DNA of 64,000 nucleotides from an uncultured Bryobacteraceae bacterium (GTDB taxonomy: Bacteria; Acidobacteriota; Terriglobia; Bryobacterales; Bryobacteraceae): NCBI GenBank assembly GCA_938027685.1, contig CALJAM010000002.1, positions 186,001 to 250,000 of the forward strand, written 5' to 3'. The position numbers and the translations under genes are program-made. The number at the start of each line of letters is the position of its first letter. Position 1 is the stretch's first letter. Below, one piece after another: positions 5,101-18,882 of this stretch. Below the pieces are notes generated by a model. The model was not told the origin of the DNA. It made no database searches and worked only from the letters and a program-made list of their open reading frames with translations.

Positions 5101-5601
5101 CTCCTTGCCGAAGATGTCCTGCCACGTATAAGCCAAGCGCCGGGCCTCTTCGTAGCGGTCCGCCGCCAGGGCCTCGCTGACATCGCCCTTCAGGCACCCG
5201 GACAGGGCGATCAGACCTTTGGCGTGACGCGCCAGCAGATCGCGGTCCACACGCGGCTTGTAGTAAAAGCCTTCCAGGTACCCGGTGGTGACGAGCTGAA
5301 TCAGGTTTCGGTAGCCCTCCTGCGTTTCGCTGAGCAGGACCAGGTGGTAATACTTCTCCGTGCGGGTGCGGTAACCCTGCGCCGCTACGTAGACTTCGCA
5401 ACCGATCACCGGATGCACCCCGCGGGCGCGCGCCGCGTTGTAGAAACGCACGGCGCCGAACAGGTTGCCGTGATCCGTCATGGCGATGGCCGGCATGCCC
5501 TGTTCGGCGACCGCCTGCATCAGTTGTTCGATTTCACAGGCGCCGTCCAGCAGCGAATAATCCGTGTGGCAGTGCAGGTGGACGAAGGGGGCTTCGGCCA
5601 T
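2149..5601 (-). CDS. dnaE: DNA polymerase III subunit alpha
   Basis: This is the replicative polymerase alpha subunit (C-family), 1150 residues, close to the usual DnaE1 length. An N-terminal PHP domain starts at residue 6 (HLHCHTDYSLLDG). The catalytic palm has PDIDIDF at about residues 406-412, whose first two Asp match the metal-binding pair of E. coli DnaE. The GPGRGSAAGS and FNKSHSAAYA motifs follow, and helix-hairpin-helix and OB-fold regions fill the C-terminal third. An upstream in-frame TTG at 5631 exists, but the ATG at 5601 aligns with the conserved MAEAPFVHLH start. accA follows 25 bases downstream. A terminator for the preceding receptor gene lies at 5630-5660, so dnaE needs its own promoter in the short gap. 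Confidence 0.97.
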   Translation of the reverse strand: MAEAPFVHLHCHTDYSLLDGACEIEQLMQAVAEQGMPAIAMTDHGNLFGAVRFYNAARARGVHPVIGCEVYVAAQGYRTRTEKYYHLVLLSETQEGYRNLIQLVTTGYLEGFYYKPRVDRDLLARHAKGLIALSGCLKGDVSEALAADRYEEARRLAYTWQDIFGKENFFLELQDHGLPQDRMVVPGLVRLSEETGIPLVVTNDTHYLRREDARAHEVLLCIQTGKTMSDPSRLRWPTPDFYLKSRAEMMQLFSGLEDALDRTWEIAQRCQVRLDRIPDPFPRFDVPEGHTTDTYFEWAVRQGFEKRRPRLEALRAAGRLKHDLAEYEERLEREIRIIQQMKFSSYFLIVWDFIRFARQQGIPVGPGRGSAAGSLVAFALGITDIDPLQYGLLFERFLNPERISLPDIDIDFCAFRRGEVIQYVTEKYGRDHVAQIITFGTLGARAGIKDVGRALDMSYAEVDRITKLVPNVLNITLDEALRLEPMLAETARKDARVAEVIEVARRLEGMARNASVHAAGVVISPVPLKELVPLYRTGKDEIVTQFDLHGLEQLGLLKMDFLGLATLSLIHDALRLIETHCGEQLALEDLPLDDPKTFEIFCRGLTSGVFQFESAGMRDLLRRAQPSRLEDLIALNALYRPGPIQGGMIDEFIERKHGRRPVVYELPELKEILEETYGVIVYQEQVMQIAHKLAGYSLGEADILRRAMGKKKPEEMAAQRERFIRGATALGHPRRKVERLFDLMEQFAGYGFNKSHSAAYAYLAYVTAYLKAHYPVYFMAALLTSEAGNSAKLVRYINECREMGIRVLPPDVNTSQWSFTPDGEAIRFGLGAIKNLGQSSAEAILAARQEVGRFRSLYHFCERVDLSALNRRVLENLIKAGAMDSLGGHRAQLLAALDSAIEAGQRAWRDRVNGQAGLFAGWQDQELADRPLPSVPEWEPAERLAFEREVLGLYVTGHPLEQYADKIRELATHTSETLEGLDRGAPVALCGLLSNVQRRRSREGRPWASAQLEDLYGAVELVIFGPSYEKLAGELKEGEAVLVRGTALPEEGAAPKVSVQEMIPLTVASPALPTLIAIRVPLGVAADDTAVALARLFQRKPGPTEVRLRLERPRDFSLILDITQKVRPDREFRDEVERLCGPDSLEILAG

Positions 5602-5611
5602 TCTGGTTTTC

Positions 5612-5617
5612 AGTATA
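5612..5617 (-). promoter_or_regulatory. Candidate -10 box of the dnaE promoter
   Basis: On the minus strand TATACT, one mismatch from the -10 consensus, sits 10 bases before the dnaE ATG. The region 17-18 bases further upstream is the T-rich end of the preceding terminator and gives only a poor -35. If used, the transcript would have a leader of fewer than 10 nucleotides, consistent with the absence of a clear Shine-Dalgarno sequence. Confidence 0.35.
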
Positions 5618-5629
5618 GGATGCGGGACC

Positions 5630-5660
5630 AAAACAAAAGGGGCGGAGCGTCGGCCGCCCC
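5630..5660 (-). terminator. Rho-independent terminator of the TonB-dependent receptor gene
   Basis: Read on the minus strand, a perfect 7-bp GC stem (GGGGCGG/CCGCCCC, loop 5646-5653) is followed at once by TTTTGTTTT. It begins about 30 bases after the receptor stop at 5691 and just before dnaE, separating the two transcription units. Confidence 0.85.
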
Positions 5661-5690
5661 GCCCCCCGTAACTTCAGCTCTGCGGCGTGC

Positions 5691-8600
5691 TCAGAAGTCC
5701 ACGCGCAGGTTGAACTGAATCACGCGGCTCAGGCCGCGCTGCGTGTTGACCATACCGAAGTCCGCGCGGGTCGGATCGGTCACCGGCCCCGCGAAGTTGG
5801 TGTGGTTGGTGGCGTTCAGCAACTCGACGTCGAAGCTCGAGCGCAACCGTTCGGTGATCCGGAACACGCGCTTGATCTTGACGTCCCAGTTGCGGATGCC
5901 ATCCTCGCGCAGGACATCCAGACGAGTGGGGAACACACGCACGTGGAACGAGCCGGGCTGCATGGCCGTGCGACCCTCGAAGCCGACGAAGCCCTGAGGC
6001 ACCGGGCCCGCGCCGGTATAGCGGATCGAGCCGTCGAACCACCGATGGATGTCTTTCTTGTGGACCTCCTCATGCTTGAACAAATCGGCGATCTTCGAGA
6101 TGTCGCCGTAGAAGAAGCGGTTGCCCCAGCTCGTGGGCGGACCCATCTGAAACTGATAGACCCAGCTAAGTTGCCAGCCGCCGATGAGGTGCTGGATGGG
6201 GTTCTGGGTCACCCACTTGCGCCCCTTGCCGAAAGGCAGCTCCCAGATGGCGCTCCAGACCGTGCGGTGCGGCCGGATGGCGTCCTGAGGACGGAAGGAG
6301 GGTCTCGCGTCGAACTCGTTGGCGTAGAAGTCCGACTCGCTGCCCTTGGCCCAGGTGTACATCACCGCGGTCTGGAAACCGCGGGAGAATCGCCGCTCCA
6401 GGCGCAATTGGATGTCGTGGTAGATGTTGAGGCCGCGCGCATCCCCGTACTTGACGCCCGGTCGCAGACCGCTCAAACCGTTCATGTTCGGGTACGCGCG
6501 CAGCAACTGGTGCTTGCGGATCGTGGTGCCGGTGAAGAAACCGAGCGTACGGAGGTAGTTGTAGACCGTGGGATCCGAGCTGGCCAGCGGGCCCAGGTTG
6601 TTAATGTGGAACGGATTGGGCAGGCTGCGGTTCAGGTCGTCGTCAATGGCCTGATTGCGCACCAGCCCGTAGGCCCAATACTGCGCCGGCAGGTAACTTA
6701 TGCTCTGCGAGACCGGAATGCGTGAGTAAGCGCCGCTGTAGGCCGCCTCGAACACCATGTCCGACGTGATCTCCCGCTGGAACCCGAAGCGGCCGCGCTG
6801 CTGCCAGGCGGGGCGATACTCGCGCGGCACAAAGCTCCAGCCGCGGCCCTGTCGGACGATGGGCCCGAGAGTGTTCCCGTACGGCACATTGAACCGGGTT
6901 CCGTCGGCGCGCACCGGGAACGGGTCCAACATGGGGTTCCGATTGGCCGCCAGATTGCTCACGGGTCCCACGCCGCAGCAGAAGGTCAGACCGCGATCCG
7001 TGGTGACCACCGTCGATGTCGGCTGGCTGTAGCCGTCCTGGCTGGGCCGGTCGTTGTTCGAGTTGAAAACGTCGTAATACCAGCCGTAACCGATGCGCAT
7101 GACGGTTTTCTGGGTAATCTGGTACACCAGGCCGAGACGCGGCATAAACAGGTGATTGCCGTCGGTGTAAGTCTTGTACTTCTGACCCAGGTAGTACGTG
7201 CCGCCGCGCACCTTAAACTGGCCGGCAGGCAACTCGGGCAGCGGGTTCTTCGCATACGCTGCTTCAACCAGATCGGCAAACGGCGGCTTGTAGTCGAAGT
7301 CGAAACCGCCGGCGATGCCGCGATTGAACCGCTCGGTAATGCCGCCCTGGCGCTCGTAGCGCAGGCCGAGCTGAAGCTGAAGCTTGCGCGTCACTCGCCA
7401 GTCATCCTGCAGGTAAATGCCGCGATAGCGAGTGCTCCAGATGGCGGTGTCGTTGGTGTCGATCGAGATGCCCGAAGGCAGCCCCATCATGAACGCCGCC
7501 CAGCCCAAGCCCAGGTCGGACGCCGTCGTGGTGTTGTCTGCCTGCCGGACGTAAAGCTGATTGAAGCTGAACGTGCCGGAAGAATAACCCGGGCCCGCCG
7601 TCGTCGTCCAGTAGCGCCGCTCCTGCCAGCCGTAGCGCAGCGAGTGAGAACCCAGCACGCTGGTCAACTGCACCCGCGCCTCGCCGGTCGTGCCGCGGAT
7701 GGTAATGGCCGGATAGCTGGCGCCCACCGTCTCCACGCCGGCGATGGACATTTGCGGCAGTGTGTGCCACTTGTCCGCCTTGGCGTCCAGATAAGAAGGC
7801 AGGCCGACGTCGGTCGGCTTGTAAGCTGTCTGAATGGGCCGCTCGGCGCCCTCGTTGAACCGGGTCCAGCTCAAACCCAGGTCCATCACCGTAGTGTTCG
7901 AAAGCGTCCAGATGTAACTGCCGCCGCCGCCCTTATTGATGCGGACGAGTCCGTTGGTATGGAGCCCGCGCTTGGTTTCGTATGTCCAGTCGTACTCGTC
8001 CGCCAGCCGGTGGTTCCAATACCAACGAGCGTAGAGCCGCTGCCGCTCGTTGACGTTGTAATCCCAGCGGTTGACGATCGAATTGAAGCGTTCGTCCTTG
8101 GGCATGTTCACGGCGTAGTAATTGTTGATGCCCTCGGGCGACGCCAGGCCGGGCACGTCATTGGGTTTTGGATAAAGCGGCTCGTAGAACTTATAAACGG
8201 GATTCAGGATCGGTACCCCTTTGTTGCCGGGGAAGGGTGTGCGGACCACACGGCCGCCGACCTCGCGCGCCGAGCGGGGATCGTAAACGGTGTACTTGAC
8301 CGCGTCGATAGCCAGCAGATCCGAGAAATCGCCCTGCCGCCAGGTCAGCTTGGGTACGGTGCGGTTGATCGCGCCCGTCGTCTCCGCCTTTTTCTGGTAG
8401 ATGCCGTTGTACTGGAAGTAGAAAAAGAACTTGTCACGACCGTTGTAAACTTTGGGAATCCGGAACGGCCCGCCCAGATCGAAGCCGAAGTTGTTCGAGC
8501 GCCCAGGCGCTTGCTTCGGATCGCTCGGCTTCTTCTTTCCCTCGCGAACATCCCGTTCCCAAAGCAGCCGCGTGAAGTGCGGCGTCGCGTTCCAACGCTG

Positions 8601-9374
8601 TTGCCAATGCTGATCGAAAAGCGAGCCGTGGTAAGTGTTGGTGCCCGCCTTGGTCATGACGTTCACCACGGCGCCTGAGGTGTAACCGTAGGAGGCGTCG
8701 ATGGCCAGCGTCTCGAGCTTGAACTCCTCCACGGCTTCCGAGGAGGGCACAAAACCCACGCGACGCCCGGTCCCCGTGACCGGCATGCCGTCGATCGAAT
8801 ACTCGTTGGAGCCTACGCCGCCCATGGTGTTGAAAGACGAGGTGCCCGCGTTATCGAACGGGCGGCGATACTCGGGCTGTCCGGTCCAGTGCATGCCTGG
8901 CGCCAGAGTGGCCATGGCGAACGGGTTCATGTCCGAGAAGGGAAGCTCTTGGATTTGCCTGCTGTCGATGACCCGGCCGCCCGAAGCCGTCGTGGTGTCC
9001 AGCAGCGGAGCTGCCGCCACCACTTCCACGGTCTCCGCAATCTGGCCCACCTGCAGCTGCAGGGTCAAGTTGACGCGCCCGGCCACTTGCAGCACCACAC
9101 CGCTCTGCAGCGTCCGCTTGAAGCCGGGAGCCTCCGCCGCTACGGAGTAATTGCCGGGATTCAGCAGGCTTACTTCGAAGTAACCGGTCTCGTTCGTCAC
9201 CGTGCGGCTGGTGACGTTGGTCTCGGTGTTGGTAACTATGACAGTGGCGTTGGGCACTACCGCGCCCTGCGGGTCTACGACGCGCCCGGAGATCGTGCCG
9301 CGCGGGTCCTGCGCAAGGCAAAGGCCGACGACGAGCAACAATGCCGCGACGCTCAGGAGAATTCGTTTTGACAT
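5691..9374 (-). CDS. TonB-dependent-receptor-like outer-membrane protein with carboxypeptidase-regulatory-like N-terminal domain (Oar-like)
   Basis: The 1227-residue product starts with a signal peptide (hydrophobic residues 5-20, cleavage near LCLA-Q). A CarboxypepD_reg/Ig-like domain follows at about 26-110 (TISGRVVDPQGAVVPNATV, GYFEVSLLNPGNYSV), then a plug-like region at about 125-260, then a long beta-barrel rich in aromatic and Arg residues ending in Phe (NLRVDF). This is the architecture of the Oar-like receptors that are expanded in Acidobacteriota; they lack a SusD partner, and none is present here. The substrate is unknown, probably an oligosaccharide or peptide (inference). The start is fixed by GGGAGAA eight bases before the ATG. 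A strong promoter lies at 9471-9499 and a terminator at 5630-5660, so the gene is monocistronic. Confidence 0.9.
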   Translation of the reverse strand: MSKRILLSVAALLLVVGLCLAQDPRGTISGRVVDPQGAVVPNATVIVTNTETNVTSRTVTNETGYFEVSLLNPGNYSVAAEAPGFKRTLQSGVVLQVAGRVNLTLQLQVGQIAETVEVVAAAPLLDTTTASGGRVIDSRQIQELPFSDMNPFAMATLAPGMHWTGQPEYRRPFDNAGTSSFNTMGGVGSNEYSIDGMPVTGTGRRVGFVPSSEAVEEFKLETLAIDASYGYTSGAVVNVMTKAGTNTYHGSLFDQHWQQRWNATPHFTRLLWERDVREGKKKPSDPKQAPGRSNNFGFDLGGPFRIPKVYNGRDKFFFYFQYNGIYQKKAETTGAINRTVPKLTWRQGDFSDLLAIDAVKYTVYDPRSAREVGGRVVRTPFPGNKGVPILNPVYKFYEPLYPKPNDVPGLASPEGINNYYAVNMPKDERFNSIVNRWDYNVNERQRLYARWYWNHRLADEYDWTYETKRGLHTNGLVRINKGGGGSYIWTLSNTTVMDLGLSWTRFNEGAERPIQTAYKPTDVGLPSYLDAKADKWHTLPQMSIAGVETVGASYPAITIRGTTGEARVQLTSVLGSHSLRYGWQERRYWTTTAGPGYSSGTFSFNQLYVRQADNTTTASDLGLGWAAFMMGLPSGISIDTNDTAIWSTRYRGIYLQDDWRVTRKLQLQLGLRYERQGGITERFNRGIAGGFDFDYKPPFADLVEAAYAKNPLPELPAGQFKVRGGTYYLGQKYKTYTDGNHLFMPRLGLVYQITQKTVMRIGYGWYYDVFNSNNDRPSQDGYSQPTSTVVTTDRGLTFCCGVGPVSNLAANRNPMLDPFPVRADGTRFNVPYGNTLGPIVRQGRGWSFVPREYRPAWQQRGRFGFQREITSDMVFEAAYSGAYSRIPVSQSISYLPAQYWAYGLVRNQAIDDDLNRSLPNPFHINNLGPLASSDPTVYNYLRTLGFFTGTTIRKHQLLRAYPNMNGLSGLRPGVKYGDARGLNIYHDIQLRLERRFSRGFQTAVMYTWAKGSESDFYANEFDARPSFRPQDAIRPHRTVWSAIWELPFGKGRKWVTQNPIQHLIGGWQLSWVYQFQMGPPTSWGNRFFYGDISKIADLFKHEEVHKKDIHRWFDGSIRYTGAGPVPQGFVGFEGRTAMQPGSFHVRVFPTRLDVLREDGIRNWDVKIKRVFRITERLRSSFDVELLNATNHTNFAGPVTDPTRADFGMVNTQRGLSRVIQFNLRVDF

Positions 9375-9470
9375 TCGCTTTTCTCCCTGAAGGATTGTCA
9401 GGGCTCAACCCCTGGGATCGGCGTCTGTGGAGGCCGCCCCCTGCGGCGTCCCAGACCCAATCCTAGGCTT

Positions 9471-9499
9471 AGTATATGCACGTGAATACTAGCTGTCAA
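9471..9499 (-). promoter_or_regulatory. Near-consensus sigma-70 promoter for the receptor gene
   Basis: The minus strand reads TTGACA (9499-9494), 17 bases, TATACT (9476-9471). The predicted start of transcription is near 9464, giving a leader of about 90 nucleotides to the ATG at 9374. The -35 matches the consensus perfectly and the -10 differs at one position, unusually good for such a GC-rich genome. Confidence 0.8.
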
Positions 9500-9588
9500 G
9501 GAAAGCCCTCAGCCGATCCGGCGAAACGATCGGCCGCCGGCGATCCGCGACCCCTCTGCCGCACGCGCGCCGCCATCCTGCAACCGGC

Positions 9589-11010
9589 TCACGCCGCCCC
9601 GATCTTCGCCAGCGGCAGCGAAAGCAGGGCCGCCACCTTTTCGATCTCGCCCATCCTGTGCCCGACACCCAACGCACAATGGTGCGTCGGGCCTTCCTGA
9701 CACCACCGGTTGACAAACTCAGCGGGCGGCAGGCGGAAACGGAGCCGCGAGTTGGTGTTGCCGATGCGCAGGATGGGCCCCGGCAGCGATTCGCCCTCCG
9801 CCGCGATCAACTTGAAGCGCCCTTCTCGAGTCTGCGTGAGACCCAGAATGGTAACCGGTCCCGTCTTGACATTGAACTCCACCGAGACGCCGTACCCGCG
9901 CTTGCCGTGGTAAAGGCCCAGCCCGCGGAGCACGGGGCGGCGGTCGCTGATCGCGATGTGCCCCGGACCGTCGTGCCCCATCAGCACGAAGTTCTCGCGG
10001 AAGTCCATTGCATAGAACTCCGTGTAAGAACCACCCGCGCCGAGCCGGTCCATCAGCAGCATCGCGATGCAGTTCTTCAGATCGCCTTCGCCGCTGGCCG
10101 GGACGCCGCGGGCCGTCAGGAGTGAATTGCCGAGGATCATGCCCGCGCCCAGCCTTTCGTATAGATTGCCATCCAGCCCGCGGTAGTAATAGGCCAGCCC
10201 GTCAAGATCGAACTCCTCGACCAGCCGGTCGAGCCCTACCGCCACGCGCGCCGCCCAACCCAGATCTTCTTGGTCCACCCCCTCGACGATGTCGAATATG
10301 CGCGCCGTCTCCTCCAGCTTCTGCCGGATTTCCGCTTCGGAAACCTGCTCGACCAAGCGCGCCAGGTCGCACATCTCGAGCACCTCCACATGCGCGCCGA
10401 GCAGGCCGTGAACCATGGTGAAGTCCGAGTACATGTCGAGCATGCCCGGATACGTGTGCCCGAGGAACCCCAGCCTCGCTCTTCGCAGGGCTCCGGCGGC
10501 CGCCGCCGCGCGGCACCACTGTTCGATCTCACGCCAGGCCCGCTCGTCTTCGTAGAGCATGCCCGAGACTACGTGGAAATCGATTCCCGAGCGCGCGAAG
10601 GCATTGGAGATTTCCGGCACACAGCAGGCCGAGCAATTCGCCAGCCATTCGCCCGTGTCGGTCCGCTCGTAGTCGAGCGCCGCCACAGGTTGGAGGTTGA
10701 GCACCACCACCGGCACGCGGGCGCGCTGCACCACAGGGAGCACCTGCGACGAGGTCGCATACGTCGCCGTGTGGCAGACCAGCAGATCGACGCCCGCCCG
10801 CGCAAATAACTCTCCTGCCTCACGCGCTGCAGGCGCGGTATCGATCAACCCCGCCCGCACGAGCTCTGCGCCAAAACCTGCCAGGCGTTTCTCCACCGCC
10901 TCAAGGTATCCTTCCAAACGCTCTTTCAGACCGGGGAACTGCGGCCAGTAAGCCGCCAGGCCGACGGCGAAAACGCCGATGCGCGGCCGCGTTTCACGCC
11001 TTCCTGCCAT
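9589..11010 (-). CDS. L-arabinose/L-fucose isomerase-family protein
   Basis: The 473-residue protein resembles the sugar-ketol isomerase superfamily (AraA/FucI-like). An N-terminal Rossmann-type domain begins RIGVFAVGLAAYWPQFPGL, and the C-terminal half has the motifs that carry metal ligands in this family: EGDLKN, the FRENFVLMGHDGPGH segment, and a closing THHCALGVGH that parallels the HH motif of AraA. The substrate cannot be read from sequence; a deoxy- or pentose sugar is likely. The upstream TTG/GTG-initiated extension (to 11184) is low-complexity, so I use the ATG at 11010, preceded by an AGGAGG. It is divergent from the aminotransferase/PEPC fusion with a 155-base gap. No sugar kinase or aldolase is adjacent. 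Confidence 0.75.
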   Translation of the reverse strand: MAGRRETRPRIGVFAVGLAAYWPQFPGLKERLEGYLEAVEKRLAGFGAELVRAGLIDTAPAAREAGELFARAGVDLLVCHTATYATSSQVLPVVQRARVPVVVLNLQPVAALDYERTDTGEWLANCSACCVPEISNAFARSGIDFHVVSGMLYEDERAWREIEQWCRAAAAAGALRRARLGFLGHTYPGMLDMYSDFTMVHGLLGAHVEVLEMCDLARLVEQVSEAEIRQKLEETARIFDIVEGVDQEDLGWAARVAVGLDRLVEEFDLDGLAYYYRGLDGNLYERLGAGMILGNSLLTARGVPASGEGDLKNCIAMLLMDRLGAGGSYTEFYAMDFRENFVLMGHDGPGHIAISDRRPVLRGLGLYHGKRGYGVSVEFNVKTGPVTILGLTQTREGRFKLIAAEGESLPGPILRIGNTNSRLRFRLPPAEFVNRWCQEGPTHHCALGVGHRMGEIEKVAALLSLPLAKIGAA

Positions 11011-11165
11011 CCCTCGCCTTCCTCCTTGCTTTGGCGTATCGAAAAGCTCAAGTCTACCAACCTGCCGATCGCGATCGGTCGCGTCCTGCTGCTCGTCCGT
11101 GCCTTGGCGAGCGGCCGGCAGCCTGTTTGCCTGCTCTGTTAGGCTTGATTCCGAGTGGGTGTGCG

Positions 11166-14100
11166 ATGTCGTCCGTCGCTCCAATGACCGCGGCTGCCGC
11201 TCTCACTGCGGCGACGGAATGGGCCGAAGCGTTTCGGCTGCGGCCGGCCAAAGGCGCCGTCGTCTCGGAAATCAGCGAGGCGACGGCGGCCGCTCCCGTG
11301 CCGCCGGCCGAACGCGTGAACTTTCACATCGGCAATCCGGTGGAGGATCCCCGGCTCGTCGAGCTGTACGCGCGCATCGCGTTGGGGCTCGAGCCGCGGT
11401 ACGGCTCCGCGGGAAACGATCTGGCCGGAGTGTTGCTTCACGAGCTGAATTGGTTGGAAGAGGACCGTTCGGCTCTGGAGTTCCTGATCACCGCCATCCG
11501 GCGCAGTGGGCCGTATCTGCCACGAGGCGGTTTCCCGCGCAGCAGGCCGGACGAACTGGTACGCCGTTTCACGGAATGGCTTAACGGGCAAAGCGAGCCG
11601 CTCTCGTACGATCTGGGCGAAACGAGCGGCCGTCGCGAAGTCATCCTTGCTACCGGCGGCGTCGCCGAGGTCCTGCGCGTTTTCTTCCACGGCCTCTCGC
11701 GCTATCTGGAACGCCTTCCGGCGCGCATCTTTGTTTATGGTCTGCCGTTGCCCGCCCATCTGCGCCGTTTCCCGGGCCTCGCCTTCCAGGATCTGCCGGA
11801 GCGGGAATCCATCGCGTTCGGCATCCTGGAACAAGCGCTGCTCGAGGCCCCGGGCGTGCCCGCTTTCCTGCTGCTGGGCCGCGTGCCCTCGGAAGAGTCC
11901 CGCCGCGCTCTAAGACGCCTGAGCCGCGATCACCCGCTTTTCGTGATCGAGGCCAACGACGCTCCCAATCATGCCTCGCTGGCGCGCGAAGCGCGCATGA
12001 TGAATCGCACGCTGCGGCTGCTGACGCCGGCCATTTTCGCCCCCGAGCTTGCGCCGCTTTCCGTGGTCTTCGTCGCGGGCTATCACGAGTTCGTCAGTCT
12101 TATCGAGCGCATGCACTTCGAGCTCAAGGGCACCCCGTCGGCCGCCGAGGTCGAGTTCCTGAGTTACTTGCTGCGGCGGCCGGCTTCTCCCCGTCTGCCT
12201 GCCGGCAACGGATCGGAGGCGCTCTACGTAGAGAAGGACGTTCGATTGGCCGGGGTTCAGCAGGTCGTGCTCCGCGTCCTGGCGGCCGCGGAAGACCGGC
12301 TCGCCAAAGCGGTCGGAGAGCGCGCCGCGACTTGGGAACAGCGGCTGGCGGAGAGGACAGCGCGCAGTGGCGAGCGACTGGCGCGACTGCTGAGCCTCCC
12401 CCTGACCTTAGCCGCACCCCGCGATCCGTTCGAAGGACTTGGCTTCCGCGAAATCCTACGCGTGCTGCCCGAACGCTCCGCCGATCTGGTCGACGCCTTC
12501 CGCGCCGCTTTCCTGCGGCACCACCCGGAATATCAGCCTGAAGCCGCCATCGTGGTCAGCGGCTCAGCGCGCACTGCGCTCAGCCTGCTGGGTTTCCATT
12601 GCGGCATACGCGAAGCCGTGGTCGCCGACCTGAGCTGGACCTACGAGCACTGCTTCCCACAAGTGACCAGCGTGCCGCTGGCCGGCGACTTCGAGCTCGA
12701 TGCGGACGGCATCCTCGCCGCCGTGGACGAGCGGCTGCGGAGGCATCCTTCTTGGCGCGAGCAAGGCGCCGTCGTGCTCAACAATCCGCACAACGCCACC
12801 GGGCAGGTTTTCTCGGAGGCCGCCCTGCGCCGACTGCTGGTGGGGCTGCTGGAGCGCGACGTGCTGGTCATCGACGATCTCTCCTACGAAAACGTCGCGC
12901 CATCGCAGGAACTCGCCGGCCCCCCTACGCTGCGCCGGATTGCCGACGATTTGCTCCGCCTCGGCCATGTCTCCCGCGAACAGGCCGGCCGCGTCGTCAC
13001 CGTGCATTCGCTGTCGAAAACCGATTGCTTGGCGGGCGCGCGGCTGTGCGTAGTGGAAATCCGCGATCCTGCGCTCAGGCAGCGATTCGCGGAAGTCAAC
13101 GCAGCGGTGACGCACAACCTGGGCGCCCTGTTGCTCGGCTATCTTTTTTACCGCGCCGGCGCGCAGTCCATCCACAACTACTGGCGCATGCGCAACGTGA
13201 TTCTCGACGAGCGGATGTCGGCGTTGGAACAGGCCGCGCGCAATCTTCCCGCCGAACGGAATCCGTTCGGCATCGCGGTGGTGCGCCCGCGCGGCGGCAT
13301 GTATCCCCGCCTGGTCGTGGAGCGCCTGCCGGCGGGAATCTCGCTGGATTGGATCGCTTCCCGCTTGGCCAGGCAGGGTGTCGGCCTCGTTCCGTTGTCC
13401 ACCTTCGCCCGCACCGAACAGGGCATCGAAGTGGGACGCAAGTCGTTCCGGCTCACGCTCGGGGGCGCCGACGATGCCGAGCGCCTCCTGGTCAAGACGC
13501 GGCGCGTTCTGATCGACCTGAACCGCATCATCGCCGAAGAGCAGGCGCACTACAGCCGCCGCACGCTGGAGTTGCGTCCGCCCCTTGCCACGACCCGCTT
13601 AGATCGGGCCGCTCTCTGGCAGGCGTGGCGCGAGTTCGAACATCGTCTAACCCGCGCTTTCGCCGCCCTACTCGAGGCTGAGGCGCGACGTCTAGGAGTG
13701 CCTGCGCGGGAGAATGGCGACGGCCTGCGCGCCGATGAATTTTTCCAGGATCGGCTGGAGTGCTTCCGCACGCGCTTTCGCGATCGCCTGGAACTCCTCG
13801 AACTGCGCCTTTGGCTGGCCGCCGAGCGGGAAGGCGCGGCGCTCGAGGAACTGCTCGAAAGGGAACTGCAACCGGACCGACTGGAGCGCCGGCAAGCCTG
13901 CTTTCGCCAGCGTATCTCCGACCGTACTGTGCATCCCACCCAGATGTACTCGCTCCAGGCCGAGCTCCAGTGGGAAAAGGCCATCGCGTCCGTGTTGGAA
14001 GGCGGCGACTGGCCCTCCCGCGTAGGACCCCTGGCCCGCGAGCTCGCACGTGAATACCTGGGTTTGAACGTCGCCATCCCCTCCCGCGCCGAAGGGGACG

Positions 14101-16781
14101 AGCTGCTGCTCGATCTTGCCGCCCGCATTGCGGTCGAGGACCTGCTGCGCTTCCGCGCCGGCATCGAGGAGCGAACCTTTCTTTCCTACTGGGGCGACTG
14201 GGATGGCAGCAATCGCCCCTCCGGCCAGGGCCACCACCTTGTCGCCACTGTCCTCATGGCCAATGTGGAGCACATGGGCCGGCTCTTAGAAACGCTGTTG
14301 CGCGAAGTCCCGGACCTGAGGGTCGATGCCGCCTTGGTTTCCGAAGTCCGCCGCCTCCCCGAAACGGGCCGCCGCTTCCGTGCCCTCTTCGACGAGATCA
14401 ACCAGTTGACTCACCAGCTCGAGCGTCGCTACCGCGGGCTACTGCCCTGGCAGTTGCAGCCCGGCGCCTTGCGCAAACTGGGTATGCGGCTTCACCTGGC
14501 GCGCGATCCCGTCGTCGTGCTTTGGGAGCACAACGACCGGCTGGAACGGCGCATGCTCGAGCTCCGCCGCCGTCGCCGCCGCATGCTCGAGCAGTATTTC
14601 CGCCTCAACGCCGCGCTGCGCCATTGCCTACGCAACAACCTCGCGGCGGTCCGGCGGCTCCGTCACCAACCGCAAACCGCGCTCGTGGCCGCATCCTATC
14701 GCGACCTGCTCAGCCGTTTCGTGATCACTCCCCGCATTCACCAGAACATGATCACTTCGGCGGATCCTTTCGCCGTGGACACCACCGCGCACAATCTGAC
14801 CGAGATCAACGAGATCGCCGGTCGCTTCGGCAACCCCGGCATGGTGCTGGCGGTGCAGGTCAGCATGGCGACGGAGCCCGAGGCTCTGATTGCGCTGGAT
14901 CGCAAGCTGCGCGCCCGCCGAGAGGAGGCCCTGAGGGCAGGCGCGGAGCAGATCCCTTCCATCTGGCTCGTGCCGCTGTTCGAACGACAGGAGACGGTGC
15001 GGGGCATCCCCGCCTACCTGGACAAGCTTTGGGAATACGCCGTGCAGAGCCGGCGGCTGAATCAGACGCCGGAACAAAGGCTGGCGGAAATGGTTTGCGA
15101 AATTTTTATCGCGGGCTCCGATCTCAGCCAGGAAGTCGGACAGACTGCCGCCCTGCTCGCTTTCCGCGAAGCCAAGTGCGCCATCACGCTCTGGCTGGCG
15201 CAACGGGGACTGGTAGGCGAGGTCCGTGTCAAGATGGGGGCCGGCGAGCCCATGCAACGGCAGGGCTGCTACTACGCGCCCATCTCCGGCCAACCGGCCT
15301 TCCTGCCCGGCCCGGACAGCGACCTGCGGCTCAGCCAGAGCGTAGGCGCTTCCGCCAAGCGCAGCGCGCAATACGCCGTCACGCCGCTGCTCGGCATCTT
15401 TGCCGCCTGCGATTTGACGACCTTTCAGAGCAACCTTTCCGAACGGCTGCGCCACCTGCCCGCCGAGGAGCTGGCGCAGGTCCTTCATCACGTCAGGGAG
15501 ACGCAACAGTTTCACCTCAACGAGCTGCGACGGGCGGCCGAGCCGCTCACTGAGACGCGCCTGCACTTCGCGCAGCGGGGCCGGCGCGAGCTGGAACGCC
15601 TCACGCTCGGGCCGCGCGATGAGTTACTGGACGAGTTCGCGCGCCTGAGCACGGAGAATTTCCGGCACATCCTCTACGGGCGCGAGGATGATGTGGTCGG
15701 CATTTACGCCGTCTCTTACTTTGTCGCCCGGACCCTGCCTCAGTTGCGCGACCGGCCGCAGGTGCGGCCGGCCGGTGGTCCCGCAGCCGCGGCAGGCCAA
15801 AGAATTCTCGAACGCATCGCGGCGACCGTCCCCTTCTGCCGCTACGGCAGCTCGCTCCGCGCCATCGCCCACAACCAGGCGCAAACCTTCGTCCTCGGAG
15901 TCAATCAACTGACCACGGGATTGTTCCGCTCGTTAGACTGGTTCGCTCGCAGCCATGCCGGCGAGGACGGCGCCGAGATGCTGCTTGCCGACCGGATCCT
16001 GCCCCACCTGCCGGTCTACGAGATTCTGCAGAGTCTCCGGCTTTATCAGGATCTCGAACTCGAATGGTTGTGGCGTCTGGAGCGGGCCTTCCCGGCCGGA
16101 AATTCCGCCTTCGCCGTCCTGCGCGAGGACGTAGACGCCATCCGACCCGCCGTGGCTTTGTTCCAGAAGGAACTGGTTCGCCGCCATGGCTTGCCCGCGG
16201 CAGAGTTCTTCGAGGGCGATCGTTTCATTGTGCGCTTGCTCCCCGCTCTGCGTCCTGACCTCGCCGTCCTGCTCCAGCCGGATCTCTTCAATACGCAACT
16301 CGAGCCGCTGCTGGCGGAAATCGGCCCCACGCCTCCCGACCCCTGGATCCGCGAGGTCGAGCGTCTGCTGGCCGTCCCTGCCAGAATTCGTGTCCTGCGC
16401 GCCAAGGCGTGGGAGCTGCTGTTCGACCCCATCTTCGAGCGAGTCTCGCGCTTCGTGGAGCTGGCCACCGCCCTCCATTCCGTCGCGCGACGGCACGCGG
16501 CAAACGAGACCCTTTCTTCCCCACCGCCCTCGTTGCGCCAGGCCATGCGTTACCTGCGCAGCTCGCAGGAGGATTCCTTGCAGCAGTTCCTGCTGGCCGC
16601 CTTCGAATACCTCTCCGCCCCTCTCGGCGCCGTCGAGCTGCCCACCAATTTGGTGCGGGCTATGAAAAAGGATGTCGAGCGGCTCGTGCGCATCGAGGAG
16701 CAACCTCTGCCCGCGCGTCAGCAGGATCTACTGCGCTTCTACCTGCTGGAAATCGCCCGCCTGGCGGGAGAGAACGGCTGA
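11166..16781 (+). CDS. Giant fusion: degenerate aminotransferase domain + PLP aminotransferase class I/II + phosphoenolpyruvate-carboxylase-like domain
   Basis: The product is 1871 residues from the ATG at 11166; an in-frame TTG at 11031 would add a low-complexity leader. Residues about 50-380 look like a fold-type-I aminotransferase ([20 protein letters not shown]), but the Lys segment is replaced by [13 protein letters not shown] around 280-300. Residues about 430-790 are a second, apparently intact copy: NNPHNATGQ (539-547), DDLSYE, and [13 protein letters not shown] with the PLP-binding Lys618, plus a C-terminal FRLTLGG substrate-Arg motif. From about 860 to the end it matches the PEPC fold: HPTQ with His923 (bacterial TAHPTE), GDWDGSN (GGDRDGN), VPLFE with Glu1273, GSDLSQEVG with Asp1319 (the two Mg ligands of PEPC), and [12 protein letters not shown] at 1356-1367, where archaeal PEPC has GMGSAPFRG. 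PEPC makes oxaloacetate from PEP and bicarbonate; an aminotransferase could turn that into aspartate. The coupling is inference. Confidence 0.75.
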
Positions 16782-16824: not shown

Positions 16825-18882
16825 ATGCGCAAGGTTTTGGGCCATTTGGTGTGGGCCGCCGTCTCCGTCACGGCGGCTTTCGCTTTGGGCGGCATCGCCC
16901 TGAACCGCGGCGAGCCCGTCAACTCCGTCTGGCTGGTAGTCGCCGCGGTTTGCACCTATCTGGTGGGCTTCCGCTTCTATGCGCGTTTCATCGGCGCGCG
17001 CGTGATGGGTTTGAACAACGACCGCGCCACGCCCGCCGAGCGGCTGCGCAACGGTCATGATTACGAGCCCACCAACAAGTGGATCCTCTTCGGCCATCAT
17101 TTCGCCGCCATCGCCGGTCCCGGCCCGCTGGTCGGTCCCGTGCTCGCCGCCCAGTTCGGCTACCTGCCGGGCACGCTCTGGATCATCATCGGCGCCGTGC
17201 TGGGCGGCTGCGTGCAGGACTTCATGATCCTGTTCGCCTCCATGCGGCGCGACGGCAAGTCGCTCGGCCAGATCGCGCGTGAAGAGATCGGGCGGGTGGG
17301 CGGCGCGACCGCTCTGGTGACCGTGCTGCTGATCATCATCATCCTGTTGGCGGTAATCGCCCTGGTGGTGGTCAACGCACTCAAGGGCAGTCCGTGGGGG
17401 ACCTTTACCATTGCCTGCACCATGCCCATCGCCGTGTTCATGGGTCTCTACCTGCGCTACTGGCGTCCGGGCAGGGTCCTCGAGATCTCTCTCATCGGCT
17501 TCGTCCTGGTGGTGTTGGCCATCATGGGCGGCGAGTGGGTGGCCAAATCCCCCGTATTGGCGCCCCTGTTCACGCTCTCCGGTCCGGCGCTCGCCATCGC
17601 CGTCATCATCTACGGCTTTTTTGCCAGCGCGCTGCCGGTCTGGCTGTTGCTGGCTCCGCGCGATTACCTCAGCACCTTCGTCAAGCTGGGCGTGGTCGTC
17701 CTGCTTGCCATCGGCATCCTTCTGGTGCGCCCGCAATTGCAACTGCCGCCTTTGACGCGCTTTGCCGACGGCACCGGACCTATCTTCGCCGGCAACATCT
17801 TCCCCTTCTGCTTCATCACCATCGCCTGCGGCGCCATCTCGGGCTTTCATTCGTTGATCGCATCCGGCACCACGCCCAAGATGATCGCGCGCGAATGGCA
17901 CGCCTGGCCGGTGGGCTACGGCGCCATGGCCCTGGAAAGCTTCGTGGCCGTCATGGCCATGATCGCCGCCTGCGCCCTTTCGCCCGGTGTGTACTTCGCC
18001 GTGAACTCGCCGGCCGGCGTGGTCGGCGAGACGCCCGAAGCGGCCACCGCCACCATCACGGGTTGGGGCTTCCCCGTCACGCCCGCGGAAATGGACGAGC
18101 TCGCACGCGAAGTGGGTGAACAAACGCTGTTTTTCCGCACCGGCGGCGCACCCTCGCTGGCGCTCGGGATGGCGCACATCTTCGCCAGCTCGGTAGGACG
18201 CAGCCTGCTCGGCTTCTGGTACCACTTCGCCATCATGTTCGAAGCTCTCTTCATCCTCACTATTGTGGATGCCGGCACGCGAGTCGGCCGCTTCATGATG
18301 CAGGACCTGCTCGGACACATCTGGAAGCCGCTCGGCCGCACGAGCTGGATGCCCAGCGTCATCCTCACCAGCGCCGGCATCGTGCTGGCCTGGGGCTATT
18401 TTCTCTACCAGGGCGTGCTCGACCCGTTGGGCGGCATCAACTCGCTCTGGCCGCTTTTCGGTATCGCCAACCAGTTGCTGGCTGCGGTCGCCCTGTGCGT
18501 GGCTACTACCATCCTGGTCAAGATGCACGGCCTCCGTTACATGTGGATCACCTGCACGCCGCTCGCCTGGCTCCTCACCGCTACCTTCTCCGCGGCTTAC
18601 CAGAAGATCTTTTCGCCCGAGCCCCGCATCGGTTTCCTGGCGCAGGCCGCGACGCTCGAAGAAGCGATCCGTGCCGGTACGGCAGTGGACGTCGCAGAGG
18701 CGCAAAGACTCATCTTCAATGCCCGGCTGGACGCGGTGGTCTGCGGCATCTTCCTGGTCCTGGTGCTGCTCATCCTCACCGATTCCCTCCGCGTCTGGTA
18801 CGGGGTCTTGAGCGGCAAGAAGGAGGCGCGCCTGCAAGAGGCCCCCTTTGTCATGACGCAGCTCAGACCGGAGGAGATATGA
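16825..18882 (+). CDS. cstA: CstA-family carbon-starvation transporter
   Basis: CstA-family proteins are multi-pass inner-membrane carriers, induced on carbon starvation in E. coli; characterised members move peptides or pyruvate. The 685-residue product (E. coli CstA is 701) has about 15-16 hydrophobic segments and clear family motifs: [16 protein letters not shown]-like residues after the second helix, [38 protein letters not shown], and [17 protein letters not shown] near the C-terminus. The start is the ATG at 16825; the longer frame from 16672 would run back into the fusion gene. It overlaps the ybdD-like gene by four bases (ATGA). The preceding gene ends 43 bases upstream, so it may share a transcript with the aminotransferase/PEPC fusion. 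Confidence 0.93.

Follow-up and report, generated by a model that had tools for sequence, protein, structure and literature searches.

Can an aminotransferase and a phosphoenolpyruvate carboxylase (PEPC) be joined in one polypeptide and, if so, what might the joint protein do? The question is raised by a gene in a 64,000-nucleotide stretch of DNA, hereafter the window (positions 186,001 to 250,000 of contig CALJAM010000002.1), from the draft genome of an uncultured Bryobacteraceae bacterium (genome G000, 3.93 Mb; the window lies on its contig C2). A sequence-only reading of this gene had proposed that a pyridoxal phosphate (PLP) aminotransferase runs without a stop into a PEPC-like domain, and that the product turns phosphoenolpyruvate (PEP) into aspartate. 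PEPC is one of the best-studied carboxylases. We found that the fused gene recurs in several phyla, nearly always with one gene for an SPFH protein, and that its PEPC-like part pairs an invariant catalytic base and metal site with a remodeled pocket.

One conserved gene encodes both parts

The 1,871-codon frame at 11166-16781 on the forward strand (Table 1) is open, with zero internal stops in translation, and it is under purifying selection. The ratio of nonsynonymous to synonymous substitution rates (dN/dS) against two congeners was 0.11 and 0.14 for the whole frame and 0.10 and 0.11 for the PEPC-like part; against a third relative it was 0.18 for both. Given the values for one congener (0.11 overall, 0.10 in the PEPC-like part), we conclude that the frame is not a product of chance. 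The open frame and its full-length conservation bear out the proposal that an aminotransferase and a PEPC-like domain are physically fused.

The sequence-only reading had suggested searching other genomes for the same pair of domains, and when this search was run, it placed relatives of the fusion at 65 loci in named genome contigs from several phyla. The frames at these loci are complete or nearly so in 45 cases, cut by a contig end in 17, and broken in 3, and in none is the fusion split into two genes. As labeled, the taxa are Bryobacterales and other Acidobacteriota, Ignavibacteria/Melioribacter/Stygiobacter and other 'Bacteroidetes', and Calditrichia, together with one KSB1 and one 'Caldisericaceae' bin. 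Stygiobacter electus 09-Me (L076) is a named strain among them; most others are metagenome bins, some of which bear the names of cultured species, such as Melioribacter roseus (L032) and Caldithrix abyssi (L079).

Genome samples, which overlap the named-contig loci in that several are the same genomes (e.g., locus L019 and genome G001), gave a similar picture. Among 101 relatives searched with the fusion protein, the window's own genome included, 18 matched at E ≤ 0.001. Seven of these matches were full length and without stops (100% identity in the own genome, 63-84% in the rest), and the other 11 were short, with E values of 4e-5 or weaker, and confined to the aminotransferase region. The C-terminal part was present in 12 of 296 sampled genomes from the phylum of the Stygiobacter match (11 with single frames of 1,854-1,922 residues, and G202 with a broken frame) and in 12 of 40 from the phylum of the Caldithrix match (frames of 1,578-1,868 residues, several cut by contig ends, except in G445, where the frame is 1,049 residues and the contig ends there). 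In an evenly drawn sample of Acidobacteriota it was present in 4 of 396 genomes. No complete unfused copy of the C-terminal part was seen among the loci and genomes searched.

The N-terminal part is an aminotransferase with an extra segment

The model of residues 23-812 (pLDDT 87.6) has an aminotransferase fold, and its comparison with LysN by VIA (2egy_B) gave a Z-score of 30.7 and a root-mean-square deviation (rmsd) of 3.1, with 367 residues aligned of 394. On the window protein the only Pfam match is PF00155 (residues 444-769, E 3e-14), a model matched by all 45 members scanned. A profile search with the whole protein retrieved aminotransferase-fold enzymes and two BAG-domain matches at E 0.76. 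The checked catalytic residues are invariant in 46 aligned homologues, the set from which all residue counts here are drawn, and by analogy with aspartate aminotransferase (AspAT), we take K618, N543, D570, Y574, and R762 to be the PLP lysine, the Asn, Asp, and Tyr of the site, and the substrate-carboxylate Arg. Fold, Pfam match, and residues thus uphold the earlier claim of an intact PLP aminotransferase with Lys618 in HSLSKTD. The best NCBIfam matches of this part fall far under their cut-offs, and its structural matches are enzymes of mixed specificity.

The fusion shares its fold and checked catalytic residues with the class I/II PLP aminotransferases (PF00155; LysN, KAT II, AspAT), although it differs from them in carrying a C-terminal PEPC-like domain and in a core that is apparently interrupted. 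The aligned ranges span the model from its first residue to about residue 769, and yet only about 370 residues align; the N-terminal arm therefore seems to lie at the start, followed by roughly 300 extra residues (about 110-418). Judging from the order of strands and helices in the model, this segment may be a degenerate second copy of the aminotransferase large domain; its profile match to the catalytic copy was not significant (P 0.036, probability 1.4%).

The C-terminal part has a predicted PEPC fold

Residues 790-1871 were modeled with a pLDDT of 83 and a pTM of 0.85, as an eight-stranded barrel of PEPC fold. All 50 Foldseek matches listed for this model were PEPCs (best E 1.6e-12), counting 3zgb and 3zge, whose titles are silent and which we take to be PEPCs; TM-scores for these 50 were just 0.31-0.45, with large rmsd across the whole chain. 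By VIA, the C-terminal part matched 8ojy_A with a Z-score of 20.8 (rmsd 4.7, 519 residues aligned), the archaeal PEPC 3odm_D with 19.1 (rmsd 3.4, 481 aligned of 526), and E. coli PEPC (1jqn) with 16.2, and the top non-PEPC row scored 13.9.

Sequence comparison gave a fainter signal. No PEPC Pfam model matched the window protein at E ≤ 1, and at the same threshold PF14010 matched 5 (best 1.1e-3) and PF00311 matched 4 (best 7e-4) of 45 C-terminal parts scanned. The unrelated model PF25443 (ANG-1) matched 12 of the 45 (best 4e-4). Given that it outscored the PEPC models by number of members, sequence matches alone decide nothing about the fold. A gathering-level match to PF00311 or PF14010 was found in neither the window protein nor the 45 members, and genome searches picked up the fusion itself under the cut-off in 2 of 45 genomes (PF00311) and, in another search, in 1 of 44. 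Profile-profile alignment to eight PEPC rows put the motifs in the right order without significance (P 0.34, probability 0.2%), and PDB sequence searches with the C-terminal part did not find PEPC.

We conclude from the model that residues 790-1871 are a true PEPC fold whose relation to PEPC in sequence is remote. The sequence-only reading had staked its claim on a PEPC barrel in this region, and the claim passed: structure comparison confirmed the barrel. With E. coli Ppc (PF00311) the domain shares the fold, with eight barrel strands and motifs in the same order. It differs in its lack of a gathering-level Pfam match, in a shorter stretch from the H138 motif to GDRDG, in its fusion with an aminotransferase, seen in all complete copies, and in having an SPFH partner. 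With the archaeal-type PEPC (PF14010; PDB 3odm) it shares a compact core, the lowest rmsd among the PEPC rows, and the sub-threshold PF14010 matches; unlike that enzyme, the fusion's domain is about twice as long, and it is fused.

The active site keeps its base and metal ligands and is remodeled nearby

We mapped residues onto E. coli Ppc, whose numbering is used here for PEPC positions, by motif and strand order rather than by superposed side chains. For comparison we used seven canonical PEPCs, the E. coli enzyme and six from fusion-bearing genomes, after dropping a wrong-frame row (L091). The residues earlier assigned to the catalytic and Mg positions, His923, Glu1273, and Asp1319, do fall on the right strands by this map and are invariant. 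The counterparts of R396, R587, R699, and R713 are likewise kept (Table 1), as are the Gln of TEQGE (Q1421) and the C-terminal Gly (G1871), both 46/46. We take R396, R581, and R713 to be the arginines of the phosphate side and assign the role of H579 on the same footing; of these three arginines, R396 and R713 are kept in 46/46 and R581 is lost. We rejected an assignment of R396 to the Arg of GDRDG, which is Trp here, since the E. coli Ppc sequence puts R396 in DIRQES, kept as R1190.

Around the kept residues, the pocket has changed throughout the family. The K546 position is Gln in every homologue, the H579 position is Met (30 of 46) or Leu (16), and the R581 position is Ser in 38, Ala in 3, Cys in 3, and Asn in 2. 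The Arg of GDRDG is Trp and the R832 counterpart is Gln, both in 46/46. All five residues are kept in 7/7 canonical PEPCs. Other residues around the replaced patch are invariant in the fusion (Q1322, K1356, E1361, Q1364), and the K773 position may be Arg (R1653, in 44/46).

In canonical PEPC, the roles of the His as base, of the mobile-loop Arg (R587), and of the C-terminal Gly are described in PMC3894211, and the metal ligands and a built-in aspartate site in PMC7569800. Mutation of K606 in maize PEPC raised the Km for bicarbonate up to 9-fold and affected Vmax little, according to PMC4085955; equating maize K606 with E. coli K546 is a transfer of numbering made in this analysis.

Table 1. 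Positions in the window of the fused gene, its parts and mapped residues, and the gene downstream
Feature	Position	Strand	Remarks
Fused aminotransferase/PEPC-like gene	11166..16781	+	1,871 aa, ATG at 11166; conservation from about residue 21-23
N-terminal segment, residues 23-417	11232..12416	+	First part matches the N-terminal arm of solved aminotransferases (aligned ranges); then an alpha/beta region; then a low-confidence coiled stretch
Catalytic part, class I/II PLP aminotransferase, residues 418-790	12417..13535	+	N543, D570, D571, Y574, S615, K618, R626, R762 invariant 46/46
K618, Schiff-base lysine position (HSLSKTD)	13017..13019	+	Invariant 46/46
PEPC-fold domain, residues 791-1871	13536..16778	+	Predicted structure; ends in C-terminal Gly invariant 46/46
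H923 (RTVHPTQ), counterpart of E. coli PEPC H138, catalytic base	13932..13934	+	46/46
R1190 (TPRIHQ), counterpart of R396	14733..14735	+	46/46
E1273 (VPLFE), counterpart of metal ligand E506	14982..14984	+	46/46
D1319 (AGSDLSQ), counterpart of metal ligand D543	15120..15122	+	46/46
Q1322, at PEPC K546 position	15129..15131	+	Gln 46/46
Residues 1357-1365, at PEPC 579-587	15234..15260	+	H579, R581 replaced; R587 kept as R1365 (46/46)
R1530, counterpart of R699	15753..15755	+	46/46
R1565 in SSLRAI, counterpart of R713 in ESLRAI	15858..15860	+	46/46
CstA-family gene	16825..18882	+	43 bp downstream of fused gene

An SPFH gene accompanies the fusion

Counting neighbors by tblastn, we identified a partner that the sequence-only reading had missed: directly upstream of the fused gene, and on its strand, 55 of the 65 loci carry a gene that encodes about 320 residues, with a gap of -3 to 518 base pairs (bp) between the matches. 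For eight of the ten exceptions, the contig starts at the beginning of the fused gene or within it, so that among the 57 loci with enough upstream sequence, 55 have the gene; the remaining two (L019 and L024) are from the window's genus. Three of three partner proteins scanned matched PF01145 (Band_7/SPFH; E 2.3e-9, 2e-4, and 4.4e-7, the second under the cut-off). Inspected by eye, the partners open with a hydrophobic helix, and the charges behind it suggest a cytosolic body.

The two genes also occur together across whole genomes. The SPFH gene was present in 7/7 relatives with the fusion and 0/94 without it; in the phylum of Stygiobacter, it was present in 12/12 with the fusion, and 0/284 without it had a strong match (six weak matches there, E 1e-4 to 8e-4, were read as other SPFH proteins); in the phylum of Caldithrix, the counts were 11/12 and 0/28. 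Pooled over the three samples, the SPFH gene accompanies the fusion in 30 of 31 genomes and occurs as a strong match in 0 of 406 that lack the fusion, where genomes of the same clade are not independent. The trees of the fusion and SPFH proteins correlate over 44 genomes (Mantel r 0.95, 0/2,000 permutations). When the fusion-protein tree is rooted at its midpoint, Acidobacteriota branch amid Ignavibacteria/Bacteroidota, and joint transfer of the two genes between phyla is therefore likely. Among the downstream genes of the 65 loci, many too short to tell, no second constant partner was found.

The partner resembles SPFH/Band-7 scaffolds (HflK-HflC with FtsH; flotillins with NfeD) in its Band_7 match and N-terminal hydrophobic helix. 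SPFH genes often stand in operons with nfeD, as stated in PMC13086221, and HflKC cages FtsH according to PMC12005517. Where those systems have a protease or NfeD, the SPFH gene here neighbors an enzyme gene of about 1,870 codons.

Two further observations concern the SPFH gene itself. At L115 (G119:C1:295128-296078), a stop separates the SPFH gene and the fused gene (open reading frames 5123-6088 and 6098-11698), and this stop rules out a single 2,204-residue frame for the SPFH match in G119. In the window's genus, the relocated SPFH gene adjoins a gene for a protein of about 660 residues (9856-11823 on the minus strand in L102, beside SPFH at 8735-9739 on the same strand; 5073-7040 in L103; 3397-5421 in L104). 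This protein contains LHVYLIKPSKYDD and looks by eye like a B12-binding radical SAM protein.

Metabolic neighbors and canonical PEPC

At three loci, one from Acidobacteria (L020) and two from Melioribacteraceae (L052 and L056), genes for an aminotransferase and PEP carboxykinase (PckA) come after the fused gene in the same orientation. The best NCBIfam match of this neighboring aminotransferase is aspartate aminotransferase (E about 1e-92, under the cut-off), with 63-79% identity to the L052 copy. PckA scores over its cut-off in L052 and L056 and is cut by the contig end in L020; in L056 an RpiR-type regulator lies ahead of the two genes. At L050 a canonical PEPC gene is adjacent and convergent. 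In the window itself, the next gene encodes a CstA-family protein that scores far above the Pfam CstA cut-off, its nearest NCBIfam model being a pyruvate/proton symporter, under the cut-off; a CstA-family gene lies downstream in 3/3 genomes of the window's genus, with a broken frame in L019. These neighbors at a few loci support the metabolic node guessed in the sequence-only reading, not the direction of the reaction.

Canonical PEPC was not found in the window's own genome. Of 45 genomes with the fusion, 11 also hold it, and another two weak PF00311 matches there are the fusion itself; among the 101 relatives, 12 have it, including 3 of the 7 with the fusion. Given its presence in 11 of the 45, the fusion is not simply the PEPC of its genome. 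The canonical PEPCs of two fusion-bearing Acidobacteriota (L089 and L090) match Pfam only from about position 64-66, carry Met in place of the K773 and N881 of the allosteric aspartate site, and end in QKMTG.

What the fusion may do

We lean, with somewhat better than even confidence, toward an SPFH-partnered two-domain enzyme of the PEP/pyruvate-oxaloacetate-aspartate node, in which a complete PLP aminotransferase is combined with a divergent, metal-binding branch of the PEPC superfamily. The fusion, its two folds in predicted structure, the invariant catalytic residues, the remodeled pocket, and the partner gene, seen in both synteny and co-occurrence, are what the data show; the scaffolding, the metabolic node, and the coupling of the two sites we infer. 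Both halves are probably catalytic. Since the barrel retains its base, its metal site, and two of the three phosphate-side arginines, we expect that a Mg-coordinated enol or 2-oxo acid can still bind there; given that K546, H579, and R581 are missing, ordinary PEPC chemistry is doubtful. The barrel would probably make or consume such a compound, for example oxaloacetate or a close analogue, which the aminotransferase would exchange with its amino acid, and the SPFH protein, with its N-terminal membrane helix, would most likely tether or cage the fusion at the inner membrane. A precedent for an SPFH assembly enclosing an enzyme is the caging of FtsH by HflK-HflC (PMC12005517). More tentatively, and with clearly less confidence, we suggest that the fusion may be a re-tooled enzyme of the PEPC superfamily, coupled to the aminotransferase within a dedicated SPFH cage, making up a membrane-tethered amino acid/2-oxo acid machine passed between phyla as a two-gene unit.

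Several observations weigh against the enzyme that we favor. Three PEPC pocket residues (K546, H579, and R581) are replaced in every homologue, and the reaction of the barrel may be far from that of PEPC. The SPFH gene is unlinked in the window's genus (in the own genome it lies at G000:C1:24737-25708), and G453, whose fusion gene is cut by the contig end, had no SPFH match. The metabolic neighbors are rare (aminotransferase with PckA at 3 of 65 loci, PEPC at 1, CstA in the 3 genomes of the window's genus), and downstream genes are otherwise unconserved, though many loci are too short to tell.

As to the reaction, a PEPC-like part that does not carboxylate, acting instead as a lyase or decarboxylase of oxaloacetate or another 2-oxo acid or in the manner of an aldolase, and feeding or draining the aminotransferase, is a serious candidate that we place a little short of an even chance. 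It would accord with the retention of metal ligands, His, and two phosphate-side arginines beside a replaced patch in which other residues are invariant, and C-C lyases (CLYBL and malyl-CoA lyase) are the top non-PEPC rows by Z-score. PckA, the neighbor at three loci, makes or uses oxaloacetate. There is, however, no direct sign of a particular reaction, and the helical PEPC body and C-terminal Gly are kept, beyond the needs of a simple lyase barrel.

A working PEP carboxylase whose oxaloacetate is aminated in the same polypeptide, as first proposed, we consider somewhat unlikely. Its fusion, PEPC fold, and His and metal ligands stood, with the full set of seven kept counterparts (H138, R396, E506, D543, R587, R699, and R713); carboxylation and direction were not established. 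With K546, H579, and R581 replaced in 46/46, PEP carboxylation and a PEP-to-aspartate route are therefore possible but unproven. Searches for canonical PEPC found none in the own genome or in 34 of 45 genomes with the fusion (a set that includes many incomplete bins), AspAT-like aminotransferase and PckA genes adjoin the fusion at three loci, and a plant PEPC tolerates loss of the K546 counterpart alone (PMC4085955). Against this stand the loss of the GDRDG Arg along with the three pocket residues, all of them kept in the canonical enzymes, and the coexistence of fusion and canonical PEPC in the genomes counted above.

Less probable again is a non-catalytic role for the PEPC-like part, as a sensor or scaffold that binds aspartate, malate, or PEP to control the aminotransferase or the SPFH assembly. 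Such a role could explain the three lost pocket residues, and of the PEPC aspartate site (PMC7569800), R587 has a retained counterpart and the K773 position may hold Arg; but the R832 counterpart of that site is Gln in 46/46, the catalytic His and both metal ligands are invariant, and dN/dS of this part is as low as that of the aminotransferase. Finally, the missing Pfam PEPC match and the wider reach of ANG-1 might be read as signs of an artefact, either two genes wrongly joined through an error in assembly or frame, or an unrelated protein whose motifs match by chance. This reading is refuted by the PEPC fold in structure and by the recurrence of the frame, at about 1.85-1.9 thousand residues, across many assemblies from several phyla, including one contig of 3.3 Mb.

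Other features of the window

A divergent gene at 9589-11184 on the minus strand encodes a protein that resembles L-arabinose/L-fucose isomerases (PF11762, E 1e-9) and falls far short of the cut-offs of the NCBIfam models for araA and sulfoquinovose isomerase; the two other genomes of the genus have this gene in the same place. A further minus-strand gene, at 5691-9374, encodes a large outer-membrane beta-barrel protein of 1,227 residues with a carboxypeptidase-regulatory N-terminal domain. A promoter and terminator scan returned 0 promoter-like and 4 terminator-like sites, at or below the level of shuffled sequence.

Significance of an SPFH-linked fusion

Among the open-licence titles and abstract openings listed by our searches, which covered the fusion itself, PEPC in Melioribacter roseus, SPFH proteins together with PEPC and an aminotransferase, and PEPC-like domains combined with aminotransferase domains, we found no description of a PEPC-aminotransferase fusion. 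The conserved, SPFH-linked fusion suggests that central metabolism includes an enzyme unit not described before. If the SPFH-partnered enzyme that we favor is correct, SPFH scaffolds would gain a defined metabolic client, a conserved enzyme of about 1,870 residues found in several phyla and nearly always with one SPFH protein, and the fusion would provide a test of whether the PEPC barrel can be put to a new use and linked with transamination.

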